Assembly: GCA_022825825.1 (NCBI GenBank)
Contig: JAJDWA010000011.1
Coordinates: forward strand, 1-64,000
Source: Candidatus Poribacteria bacterium
GTDB taxonomy: Bacteria; Poribacteria; WGA-4E; WGA-3G
Reading direction: 5' to 3'
DNA length: 64,000 nt
Below the pieces are notes generated by a model. That model ran no database searches. It was given only the letters and a program-made list of their open reading frames with translations, and had not been told where the DNA came from. Every line of letters starts with the position of its first letter. Position 1 is the stretch's first letter. The position numbers and the translations under genes are program-made. Below are positions 47,230-51,661 of the stretch, one piece after another.

Positions 47230-48624
47230 ATGGATAAGGAAACACAAAACTTCTCTGGTGCGGTACTCTTAATCTCCTGCTACGAACTCGGACACCGGCC
47301 GATGGGACTGACGCGTCCACTCGGTGCGCTTGAAGCTGCTGGATTTTTCCCTGATACCATTGACATTGCAGTTGAAACCTTGGACGCAGAAAAAGTTAAA
47401 CGCGCCCGGTTTATCGGTATCTCTGTTCCAATGCATACTGCCTTGCGGCTTGGTGTTCACCTTCTCCAACGAATTCGCGATCTCAATCCAGATGTTTCAA
47501 TATGCATGTATGGACTTTACGCTGAACTTAATTCGGATTATCTACTTTCACACGGGGTTGACTTTTGCATCGGTGGTGCAGCATCAACGCGACTTGTTGA
47601 ATTAGTGCAATCCCTTGTAGAAGAAAAAGGATTTGAGGCACAAAAACCTCGCCCTACAATTATAAAAAACGGAAAACTACCCTCTTTGGAAAAGTATGCA
47701 CGATTTGAGGATAACGGTGAGGTGCGAACCGTCGGATATACGGAGACAACGCACGGATGCAAGCATCTTTGCACGCACTGTCCTATCCCACCTGTCTATA
47801 ATGGCAAGTTTTTCGCTGTGAAACGAGAAACTGTGTTAGACGAAATTCAGAAACAGGTAGCTGAAGGGGCAACGCATATCACATTCGGAGATCCAGATTT
47901 TCTCAACGGACCGATGCATGGACTCCGAATTCTGCGCGCAATGCATGAGGCATTCCCTAATCTTACTTTTGACTTTACAACGAAGATTGAGCATATTCTC
48001 AAACACAGCAAACACTTCCCCGAATTTGCGAAACTCGGATGCCGATTTGTCATCTCTGCTGTGGAATCGCTGAGCGAAAAGGTGTTAACGATTTTAGAGA
48101 AACACCATACCCGCGCAGATGTTGAAACTGCAATTGACATCGTTCATGGTGCTGGCATCGCGCTGCGCCCAACATGGGTACCGTTCACACCGTGGACAAC
48201 CTTAGACGACTATCTTGAAATCCTTGAATTCGTTGGGACGCATCGCCTCATTTATCATGTTGATCCTGTGCAGTTTGCTGTTCGGTTGCTAATTCCTCCC
48301 GGTTCATATCTACTTAACAGTCCCGAAACGAAAGCACTTTCCCTTACACTTGATGAAACCGCCTTTAGTTATATTTGGGCACATCCCGATGCACGGATGG
48401 ATGAACTTCATAAAACGATTAATGCCCTTGTCCAAAATGATGCTCGAACCGGTGTTGATACGTTAGATACTTTCTATCGGATATGGGAACTTGCTGCTGA
48501 TATGCAGGGACAGGCTGCGCCGAAACCAAACAAGACTACCAATTTACCCGCACCTCGGATTACCGAGGCGTGGTTCTGCTGAGCAGAGCCTACTGAGGGG
48601 CAGTTTGCGCCGATTCAGGTTTAG
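47230..48624 (+). CDS. CUAEP-tail radical SAM selenoprotein (in-frame TGA read as Sec)
   Basis: A 464-residue protein if the TGA at 48580-48582 is read as selenocysteine. An N-terminal B12-binding-like domain (about residues 1-150, with RFIGISVPMHTALRLG) precedes a radical SAM core whose CKHLCTHC gives the 4Fe-4S ligands C177, C181 and C184. Next come ITFGDPDFLNG and a C-terminal helical part. The frame then reads TGC TGA GCA GAG CCT, that is Cys-Sec-Ala-Glu-Pro, and continues ten more codons to TAG at 48622. This is the C-terminal motif of the CUAEP/CCAEP-tail radical SAM family, in which Sec and Cys alternate at one site. The sequence after the TGA can fold as a hairpin. The exact reaction is unknown. 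Standard gene callers would stop at 48582. Confidence 0.85.
48583..48622 (+). promoter_or_regulatory. candidate bacterial SECIS hairpin
   Basis: Directly after the TGA, CTGA/TCAG (48593-48596 with 48615-48618) and GG.GC/GC.CC pairings around a loop near 48602-48606 form an imperfect stem-loop. Its apex lies about 20 nt after the TGA, in the distance range of bacterial SECIS elements. Folding was judged by eye. Confidence 0.5.
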
Positions 48625-48695
48625 TTTGTCAGAACAAGTATTTCCGATAAACGAGAATCAGATATTCAATTTACCTACAACAGGAGGTTGAAATA

Positions 48696-50933
48696 ATGAA
48701 AAAGTTGTTTCTGGCATTCGCCCTATTTTTCTCTGTAACATTGTGTCTATCAACTGCTTTCGCGCAATATGAACCCTCCACACAGATAGGTTTACCCGAA
48801 GGTGCCATTGCACGTTTCTGCAAAGGGACTATAGAGGAGATAATGTATTCCCCGGATGGCACGCGGTTTGCTGTTACCACATCCATTGGCGTTTGGATCT
48901 ACGATTCTCAAACTGGTGAAGAACTTGACCTAATAACAGGAAAACATACTGATAGCGTCTATTCCGCTGCGTATTCACCGGATAGTAAAACAATCGCAAT
49001 AACCAGTCGAGACGGGACGGTGAGATTATGGGATGCACGTACAGGTAAACTTCAAAAAACGCTCACTGGACATAAGCACTCGGTTTTGTCTGTTGCATAT
49101 TCCCCAGATGGTGGTACACTGGCAACTAGAGGTGTAGACGATACAATCCGACTTTGGAATGCACGCACAGATAAATATATAAAAACACTTAAAGGGCATA
49201 CAAAGGCCGTCTTGTCAGTTGTGTTCTCACCAGACAGTAAAACAATCGCAAGTAGCAGTAATGATGGCACAATCCGATTTTGGGATGTGGAGAGAGGACA
49301 ACTGATAAATACACTTTCTGGATATCCTCTATATCGGGACCTGATTGCTTACTCTCCAGATGGCAGGACGCTCCTGGTAGCAAACGATCCACATTACAAC
49401 CCAAATCGTAGGACGCAGATAATAGCACTTGATAAAATATACACGATACACATGTTGAATGTGGCTACTGGAAAACTTATAAGAACATTCTCTTCGCTGA
49501 ACTATATTAATTGTTTTACATTTTCTCCGGATGGAGAAACTATCGCAATTAGCGATGGAGAAAGATTTGGACTCTGGAATGCTACCACTGGGAAACATCT
49601 AAAAACCTTTATTGAGGAGATACATGAAGTCAATTCTATCGCATATTCACCCGATGGCAAAACAATCGCTACTGCAAGCATGGACGGGACGATTCGCTGG
49701 TGGAATGTGCAAACCGGAGAAAACATAGAAACATTCCCAAGGTTTATTGATGCGTATGGTCCTATAAAATACTCCCCCAACGGTAAAACCATTGCAATTA
49801 CTGAAGGGAAAGAGATAAGTCTATGGAATGTCACCACTGGAAAACATCTAAAAACACTTAAAGGACATGAACGTTTTATTTTTGGTATGGCGTTTTCTCC
49901 GGATGGAGATACCATTGCAACTGGTAGTACCGACGGGACAGCACGGTTGTGGAACGCACATACAGGAGAAACCATAAAAATACTCGTTACACATAGGAAC
50001 CATGTCAATACTCCTATTCGTATTGATACGCCTGTGTATTCACCAGATGGCAAAACAATTGCCGCTCATAGTAAGGACAATTGGGTGTGGCTATGGGAGA
50101 CACACACAGGAAAAACCATAATTGCGATTCCAGGGAAGGTTAGTCATTTTAGACGTTTCATGTTTTCACCAGATGGTCGGATACTTGCAACTAATAGTAG
50201 AGACAAGCCAGTACAATTGTGGGACACAATAACGGGAAAGAATATTAATACACTCATGGGACATGCATGGCACATTATGTTTTCGCCAGATGGCAAAACA
50301 ATTGCAACTTATACTGACGACATGGTGCAATTGTGGGATACAATTACAGGAGAAAACATCAATACACTTTTTGCACCAAATGCATACGTCATCGCAGTTT
50401 TGCATCTACATAATAAACCATTCGCAATTACTATCTACGAGGATAAAACATCGTCACTATGGGATGTTACCACGGGGCAGCTCATAAAAAAATTTAAGAG
50501 ACCTGGAGATGTATTTTCTAAATTTTTTGGATGGCTGAACCTTGAAAAAGTATCACGTTTTGACTATGATATCCAGTGTTCACCGACCAGCAATACATTT
50601 GTGACTATTGCAGATCACACCCCCGTACGGTTATGGAATATTACCACAGGAAAACTAATAGGAAAACCAATAAAACACCTCAAAGGCGAAGACGGATACA
50701 TCCGCGTTATGTATTCACCAGATGGGAAGACATTCGCGACCATTCCAGTTGGTGATGATTTTGAAGGAGGCACAGTTCGACTGTGGGATGCTGCCACAGG
50801 TAAACACTTGAAAACACTCAGAGGGCATTCGAATTGTGATTATGACTCAGTTACGTATTCCCCTGACAGCAAGACAATCGCAACGGGACATTATGATGGT
50901 ACAATCATACTATGGGATATACCCTCACGGTAA
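48696..50933 (+). CDS. exported WD40-repeat protein
   Basis: A 745-residue secreted protein: signal peptide (LFLAFALFFSVTLCLSTAFA) followed by about 14 WD40 units from residue 40 to the end, probably two beta-propellers. The units are of the high-identity bacterial style (YSPDGKTIA, GTIRLWD, LKGH). No kinase or other enzyme domain is attached. Proteins of this kind act as binding scaffolds, and many copies per genome are typical of Poribacteria. AGGAGG lies 8 nt before the ATG. Some blades are diverged (around residues 215-250 and 560-640). Confidence 0.9.
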   Translation: MKKLFLAFALFFSVTLCLSTAFAQYEPSTQIGLPEGAIARFCKGTIEEIMYSPDGTRFAVTTSIGVWIYDSQTGEELDLITGKHTDSVYSAAYSPDSKTIAITSRDGTVRLWDARTGKLQKTLTGHKHSVLSVAYSPDGGTLATRGVDDTIRLWNARTDKYIKTLKGHTKAVLSVVFSPDSKTIASSSNDGTIRFWDVERGQLINTLSGYPLYRDLIAYSPDGRTLLVANDPHYNPNRRTQIIALDKIYTIHMLNVATGKLIRTFSSLNYINCFTFSPDGETIAISDGERFGLWNATTGKHLKTFIEEIHEVNSIAYSPDGKTIATASMDGTIRWWNVQTGENIETFPRFIDAYGPIKYSPNGKTIAITEGKEISLWNVTTGKHLKTLKGHERFIFGMAFSPDGDTIATGSTDGTARLWNAHTGETIKILVTHRNHVNTPIRIDTPVYSPDGKTIAAHSKDNWVWLWETHTGKTIIAIPGKVSHFRRFMFSPDGRILATNSRDKPVQLWDTITGKNINTLMGHAWHIMFSPDGKTIATYTDDMVQLWDTITGENINTLFAPNAYVIAVLHLHNKPFAITIYEDKTSSLWDVTTGQLIKKFKRPGDVFSKFFGWLNLEKVSRFDYDIQCSPTSNTFVTIADHTPVRLWNITTGKLIGKPIKHLKGEDGYIRVMYSPDGKTFATIPVGDDFEGGTVRLWDAATGKHLKTLRGHSNCDYDSVTYSPDSKTIATGHYDGTIILWDIPSR

Positions 50934-50974: not shown

Positions 50975-51661
50975 ATGACAGAACAATTACAAGAACTACT
51001 CGATTTAGAAACTGCACCTATTGCAGTAACATTTCACGACGCGCAACCTGATGGTGTTTCCCGCGTGGAAAAAGCTGAGGCATCCGGCTGCACCTATTGG
51101 AAACGTGCATCGGAAGGTAAGACCTTCTACACCGAGGCATCCGACCACTACAACTGTCCGATTGGGTGTTATACCCATAATGTTGAACTACCTGACGCAC
51201 AGATGGAGGAATTGGAAAACACGCTCGGACTGATGGGTGAACTCGGTTATATTAGTATGGACGAGGTCCCTGGCATTCCTCGGAGGGAAGACGCTTTTAA
51301 AAATGCGGTTTACGCTCCTTTAGCAGACACAACTGACATACCAGATGTTGTTCTTATCTCTGGCACGCCGAAGCAGATGATGCTCTTAGTAGAAGCTGCA
51401 ACCGCTGCAGGAATCGGTACAGAAAACGGTGTGATGGGCAGACCGACGTGTGCTGTCATACCGGCCGTTATGCAGTCTGATAAAGGGGCAAGTAGTTTAG
51501 GGTGCATCGGCAACCGCGTTTATACTGCACTCTCTGATGATGATTTCTACTTCGCCTTCCCGGGCAAACACATTGATGCACTCGTTAAAAAGTTAGAGAC
51601 AATTGTGAATGCAAACCGTGCATTAGAAGAATATCATCAGCAGCGCCAAGCGGAGATTTAA
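50975..51661 (+). CDS. DUF169 family protein
   Basis: A 228-residue cytoplasmic protein of the DUF169 family. Conserved parts are the opening LLDLETAPIAVTF, the Cys-containing GCTYW and YNCPIGCYTHN (possible metal or cofactor ligands), VVLISGTPKQMMLL, and GMPTC-like GRPTCAVIPAVM, SSLGCIGNR and YFAFPG towards the end. The family is of unknown function and is often found near oxidoreductases in anaerobes. An AAGGAG site precedes the ATG. Its stop is immediately followed by the SDR start (TAAATG), so the two are coupled. Confidence 0.85.
   Translation: MTEQLQELLDLETAPIAVTFHDAQPDGVSRVEKAEASGCTYWKRASEGKTFYTEASDHYNCPIGCYTHNVELPDAQMEELENTLGLMGELGYISMDEVPGIPRREDAFKNAVYAPLADTTDIPDVVLISGTPKQMMLLVEAATAAGIGTENGVMGRPTCAVIPAVMQSDKGASSLGCIGNRVYTALSDDDFYFAFPGKHIDALVKKLETIVNANRALEEYHQQRQAEI

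Follow-up and report, generated by a model that had tools for sequence, protein, structure and literature searches.

The window analysed here is a stretch of 64,000 nucleotides (contig C61) from a Candidatus Poribacteria genome that is 84% complete and comprises 75 contigs and 5.14 Mb. Its forward strand carries a gene at 47,230–48,624 that opens with ATG at 47,230 and runs for 450 codons to Trp-Phe-Cys, where a single in-frame TGA (48,580–48,582) is followed by GCA GAG CCT and a further ten codons (AEPTEGQFAPIQV) before a TAG at 48,622–48,624. These coordinates are exactly those of an earlier note on this DNA, and the 14 residues (Sec and 13 more) which it expected standard annotation to lose agree with what termination at the TGA would cost the product. 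Read through the TGA, the gene has 464 codons and would encode a CUAEP-tail radical SAM (rSAM) selenoprotein. A repeat-protein gene, WD40-like by eye (48,696–50,933, forward strand), sits between it and a DUF169 (COG2043) protein gene (50,975–51,661, forward strand; PF02596, 106.6 bits). The nearest relatives are by title Candidatus Poribacteria, the top one being 90% identical.

The rSAM protein matched the NCBIfam model NF040546 (‘CUAEP/CCAEP-tail radical SAM (seleno)protein’) with 628.3 bits, over the curated cut-off of 500 bits and across profile positions 1–467 of 468, and the match crosses the TGA and extends to residue 460. The radical SAM domain (PF04055) scored 50.9 bits, and a B12-binding-type N-terminal domain 25.0 bits, below its cut-off of 32.1. 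The radical SAM motif CX3CX2C (Cys177, Cys181, Cys184; 47,758–47,781, forward strand) is invariant in all 50 rows aligned, as are E446, W448, F449, C450, C/U451, E453 and P454 in the tail. This tail motif, TEAWFC-U-AEP, lies at 48,565–48,594 on the same strand, with Cys450 at 48,577–48,579 and the putative Sec451 codon being the TGA. The predicted structure has a mean pLDDT of 91.4, with values of about 86 for residues 441–450 and about 82 for residues 451–460. The window gene is a further member of this family of unknown function, as the earlier note had recognised from the tail, which aligns with 80 relatives. It shares the full-length match over the cut-off, the radical SAM motif and the C-U-A-E-P tail with the family, and itself shows no difference from it. 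The family is already named in NCBIfam, and beyond this naming our analysis adds genomic partners and a tested Sec machinery and hairpin; NCBIfam and RefSeq names, like the Foldseek matches discussed below, are annotations and not function tests. The open literature searched, without preprints and most subscription papers, returned no ‘CUAEP’ family and no paper on Poribacteria together with a selenoprotein. The accessible part of a 2026 review of the prokaryotic selenoproteome (PMC13188914) has no NF040546, CUAEP, CCAEP, ATP-grasp, ligase or DUF169, and PMC12013277 does not mention ‘radical SAM’ or ‘CUAEP’.

The tail beyond the TGA is conserved across the family, with Cys and TGA exchanging at a single position. 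In a set of 81 tails (the window and the best 80 of 137 relatives found), WFC[U/C][A/S]EP was present in frame in all 81, and codon 451 was TGA in 64, including two rows reading USEP, and Cys (TGC or TGT) in 17. A quick tree of 52 rows, 18 of whose 49 inner branches are weak, requires five changes between the Sec and Cys states, compared with a mean of 13.9 when shuffled. In a phylum set of 84 genomes, 48 carried the rSAM gene over the NF040546 cut-off. They account for 49 listed places, and the single internal stop of each is a TGA, so that Poribacteria use TGA in this gene at 49 of 49 places over the cut-off. The rSAM gene of one genome (G069) is split, and its other piece contains TAA. Were the TGA at 48,580 a plain stop, the enzyme would end at Cys450 and the conserved tail would be made rarely or never. 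RefSeq does end the copy from Thermomicrobium roseum at WFC in this manner, but all 81 rows conserve the protein sequence downstream, 17 of them with Cys in place of the TGA, which argues against such a stop.

Downstream of the TGA, a SECIS-like hairpin was detected at 48,596–48,612 (forward strand), with arms at 48,596–48,601 and 48,607–48,612, one G.G mismatch, and a loop (AGTTT, 48,602–48,606) beginning 20 nt past the TGA. In the part of PMC1088965 available, bacterial SECIS elements are described as hairpins right after the TGA with a small loop containing G; the covarying stem and AGTTT loop found here correspond to this description, the window copy being weak. Folded alone, the 45 nt from the window were unremarkable (z −0.91; of 200 dinucleotide shuffles, 38 were as stable), as would be expected of a plain stop. 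As plain folding was uninformative for this hairpin, synonymous recoding and covariation were used instead. Among synonymous recodings of the same peptide, 11 of 300 were as stable. Covariation was measured in 19 Sec tails hand-chosen from the 64, omitting near-copies and the Rokubacterial tails, which have a 4-nt loop and pair in another register. Stem columns 17–22 with 28–33 formed 85.1% standard pairs in these tails (64.3% in shuffles; 45.6% or less in slid registers), 24 cells were changed on both sides (7.8 in shuffles), and the covariation score of 0.560 (0.162 when shuffled) was reached by 0 of 500 shuffles. Five pairs showed change on both sides, compared with 3.4 when shuffled (35 of 500). 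Furthermore, a synonymous-codon test gave a mean z of −1.55 for 62 Sec rows and +0.17 for 16 of the 17 Cys rows, one being dropped as too short; exceptions were one Sec row (L035, z +1.17) and one Cys row (L070, z −2.47). The imperfect hairpin of the earlier note exists and covaries in Sec tails, which counts against a plain stop, whereas the window's own copy is weak. An Rfam scan of 48,400–48,800 (E up to 10) gave four matches to eukaryotic snoRNA or Salmonella sRNA families, none of which reached its gathering score or overlapped the hairpin, and these were dismissed as chance.

The genome carrying the window encodes all of the Sec genes that the earlier note had placed outside it, which again counts against a plain stop. 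SelA was found with 530 bits, SelB by a match to its C-terminal domain and recovery of the whole gene, and SelD with 372 bits and one internal TGA. A single tRNA-Sec match exceeded the gathering score (78.7 versus 47; 17 others fell below), its TCA anticodon was confirmed by ARAGORN, and it adjoins SelB, about 20 bases from the SelB frame. Across 50 of the genomes that hold the loci, in which Poribacteria are represented by L013 only, SelB was over the cut-off in 31 of 33 genomes with the Sec form compared with 7 of 17 with the Cys form; the two Sec-form genomes without it (L054, L060) are perhaps incomplete. SelA was present in 72 of the 84 phylum-set genomes (E up to 1e-40) and does not separate Poribacteria with the rSAM gene from those without, so that Sec use in the phylum extends beyond this gene.

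Machinery, Cys exchange, hairpin, SelB distribution and phylum-wide TGA all agree, and on these comparative grounds the TGA at 48,580 is almost certainly decoded as selenocysteine, as the earlier note had proposed. The homologues keep AEP beyond the TGA or Cys position, and a plain stop appears highly improbable. SelB and Sec-tRNA(UCA), guided by the hairpin, would insert Sec451, and translation would continue to the TAG at 48,622. The SelD gene of this genome (contig C51; L101, 3,811–4,857, reverse strand) itself reads KCAGU at residue 17 (Sec17), and this selenium donor enzyme is thus a predicted selenoprotein as well.

The neighbourhoods of the rSAM gene were surveyed in fetched stretches of mostly up to 4 kb per side. 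Clustering of neighbours was first clouded by antisense ORFs in GC-rich loci, and a GC3 filter revealed the real neighbours. Outside Poribacteria, an ATP-grasp protein of about 410 residues lies near the rSAM gene in 38 of 49 loci and an Nfu/NifU-domain protein in 37 of 49. The Poribacterial loci, window included, have a DUF169 protein nearby in 25 of 32 and the ATP-grasp ligase in none of 32 of the fetched stretches; DUF169 also occurs in five non-Poribacterial loci. In domain searches, all three ligases tested had ATP-grasp_4 and LAL_C2, both Nfu proteins had NifU (one also Nfu_N), and both DUF169 proteins matched that domain. Rokubacteria and Planctomycetes have the ligase downstream of the rSAM gene, and in Actinobacteria it is upstream. 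Some Chloroflexi also have it upstream, others on the opposite strand, where it lies in one Elusimicrobia locus too. Many relatives have DUF169 about 70–330 bases after the rSAM gene, as opposed to the window with its intervening repeat-protein gene. Because DUF169 directly follows the rSAM gene in so many of them, this repeat-protein gene is probably not part of the system. The co-occurring DUF169 protein is a probable helper in the same pathway.

In Poribacteria, the ligase is found elsewhere in the genome. The genome of the window has exactly one ligase match, on contig C53 (45% identity, 330.7 bits), and one Nfu match, on contig C29. Of the 84 phylum-set genomes, 50 carry the rSAM gene (48 over the cut-off and two, G109 and G117, as fragments) and 54 carry the ligase, with both in 49, neither in 29, the rSAM gene only in one (G104, 86% complete) and the ligase only in five (G085, G097, G100, G103, G126). 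The association is strong (Fisher p = 2.6e-16, a value that ignores kinship). Within the window's own genus (18 genomes), all 11 genomes that carry the rSAM gene have the ligase, compared with one of the seven that do not, and this patchy pattern inside one genus is a stronger argument for the link than p-values.

The DUF169 gene follows a similar distribution in the window's own family (58 genomes), with rSAM and DUF169 genes both present in 39, neither in 18, DUF169 only in one and rSAM only in none (p-values for such counts ignore kinship). In the one DUF169-only genome (G103) the match begins 58 bases into a contig, and its rSAM gene may have been lost to assembly. Of 11 sister-family genomes with the rSAM gene, seven have distant DUF169 relatives only (34–37% identity), and the other four gave no match at E up to 1e-20. 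Four Cys are conserved in the DUF169 proteins in all 29 rows kept, and none of the genes in these rows has an in-frame stop.

The rSAM enzyme very probably shares a pathway with this ATP-grasp protein of the L-amino-acid-ligase type, the link being a statistical one. Like the L-amino-acid ligases BL00235 and BacD, the partner has ATP-grasp_4 and LAL_C2, and the ligase of the window's own genome matches BL00235, a solved relative that joins amino acids, with 130.8 bits. It differs from them in that it falls short of the cut-offs set for the named ligase models, has a conserved GGL-Cys (TGA in three genomes) and pairs with a radical SAM enzyme. If borne out, the link would place this orphan family in a pathway that comprises two or three enzymes and can be tested, and it would supply a setting for the DUF169 domain, whose function is unknown. 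A paper on the set of rSAM, ligase and DUF169 genes was not found in the open literature searched, which does not prove its absence in print.

The ligase carries a TGA of its own in three Poribacterial genomes. The ligases of G119, G127 and G129 (L107, L108 and L106) each have one internal TGA, which falls on the Cys of GGL-C; in the ATP-grasp fold, this Cys would come after the Glu/Arg signature that binds metal. GGL-C was read in 43 ligase genes, of which 40 have Cys, among them that of the window's genome (TGT), and three have TGA; one more (L048) ends before the site, and a further 48 of the 54 Poribacterial ligase genomes were screened for internal stops only. The 116–117 codons past the TGA are open and, by simple counts with gaps not modelled, show up to 35.5 synonymous changes, with a dN/dS among the three of 0.06–0.09 compared with 0.04–0.09 before the TGA. 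Such a pattern would not be expected of a dead tail. All three genomes carry SelA and a TGA-bearing rSAM gene. Comparison of the hairpin after the ligase TGA with synonymous recodings gave mixed results (18, 154 and 11 of 500 as stable). On this pattern of conservation, the ligase of these genomes is likely a second selenoprotein, and the three TGAs may be one event. If true, amino-acid ligases containing Sec would form a new family of selenoproteins; no paper on such a ligase was among the matches listed in the open literature, the sole ATP-grasp match concerning RiPP cyclisation.

The nearest characterised relative of the rSAM enzyme by sequence is ArsL. The ArsL model NF040542 matched the window protein with 315 bits over residues 12–397, under its cut-off of 450, and the kinship is reciprocal (336 bits). 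According to the part of PMC8552651 available, ArsL is required for hydroxyarsinothricin formation and is predicted to transfer a 3-amino-3-carboxypropyl group from SAM to arsenite. Both proteins end in a vicinal pair, which is Cys450-Sec451 in the window and lies within FKRCCLKC in the ArsL read here. The core homology and this shared pair would suit an enzyme that is ArsL in all but name, making an arsinothricin-type organoarsenical from arsenite. Against this stand the score below the ArsL cut-off, a very long tree branch to ArsL (3.85), and a CUAEP tail with Sec rather than RCCLKC. Furthermore, single-query searches with seven proteins of one ars cluster (E up to 1e-4) recovered no homologue from the window, from the surroundings of the 80 loci or from those of the T. 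roseum gene, and the ars cluster fetched is without the ligase, the usual partner of the rSAM enzyme. We therefore regard this identity as improbable; for want of any homologue of the seven ars-cluster proteins near a locus, arsenic itself is also unlikely to be the element handled. The broader explanation, in which Sec451 is read through in an ArsL-related enzyme that acts in a pathway with the ligase and DUF169 protein, is by contrast probable.

The chemistry of the enzyme is less clear. Among solved structures, sequence searches recovered only MiaB (E 1.5e-4) and weaker relatives, and the Foldseek matches (AprD4, OxsB, TsrM, MgmA and MiaB) are annotations that do not fix the substrate. SAM would be cleaved at the [4Fe-4S] cluster held by Cys177/181/184 and a SAM-derived group, predicted to be 3-amino-3-carboxypropyl for ArsL, moved to an acceptor. 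The Cys450-Sec451 pair may fold over the active site and hold or reduce a soft, thiol-loving atom or intermediate. By analogy to ArsL, such a group transfer is possible, though we would sooner doubt it than expect it. Alternatively, no SAM-derived group would be transferred: the enzyme would carry out an ordinary oxidation, epimerisation or peptide modification by way of the 5'-deoxyadenosyl radical, with the tail pair serving as a redox relay, a hydrogen-atom relay or a ligand to Fe-S. We give this alternative somewhat less than an even chance. It fits the canonical CX3CX2C that is retained, best fold matches that are general radical SAM enzymes (AprD4, OxsB, TsrM, MiaB), and the view, in the accessible part of PMC9312934, that most Sec families are redox active. 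It sits less well with the aminocarboxypropyl transfer predicted for ArsL (PMC8552651, as far as available) and with a ligase partner that suits an amino-acid product.

With group transfer, the rSAM product would be an amino acid which the ligase joins to another amino acid, while Nfu would supply Fe-S and the DUF169 protein would act as a helper. We tentatively suggest an undescribed pathway spanning several phyla, in which an ArsL-like rSAM enzyme with a Cys-Sec tail might make an amino acid that bears As, Se or S in the form of a soft element or thiol-reactive group, and from it an ATP-grasp ligase, with Cys or, in three Poribacteria, Sec, might make a dipeptide, aided by DUF169 and Nfu proteins; in this form, with two successive enzymes having exchangeable Cys/Sec, the proposal is rather unlikely to hold.

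Two further genomes deserve mention. The cultured Thermomicrobium roseum DSM 5159 carries its rSAM copy on a plasmid (NC_011961.1; L104, 4,941–6,377). Its protein, WP_012643191.1, ends at WFC although TGA and AEP continue in frame in the DNA, and this RefSeq annotation is truncated at the predicted Sec codon; the plasmid record carries the family name despite the protein ending there. In a search with the ligase, ten plasmid records matched at E up to 1e-20, and the T. roseum plasmid was not among them. In the Poribacterial genome G107 (contamination 9%), two CUAEP and two DUF169 genes were observed across contigs C72 and C105, and this doubling may reflect two mixed strains or a duplication.
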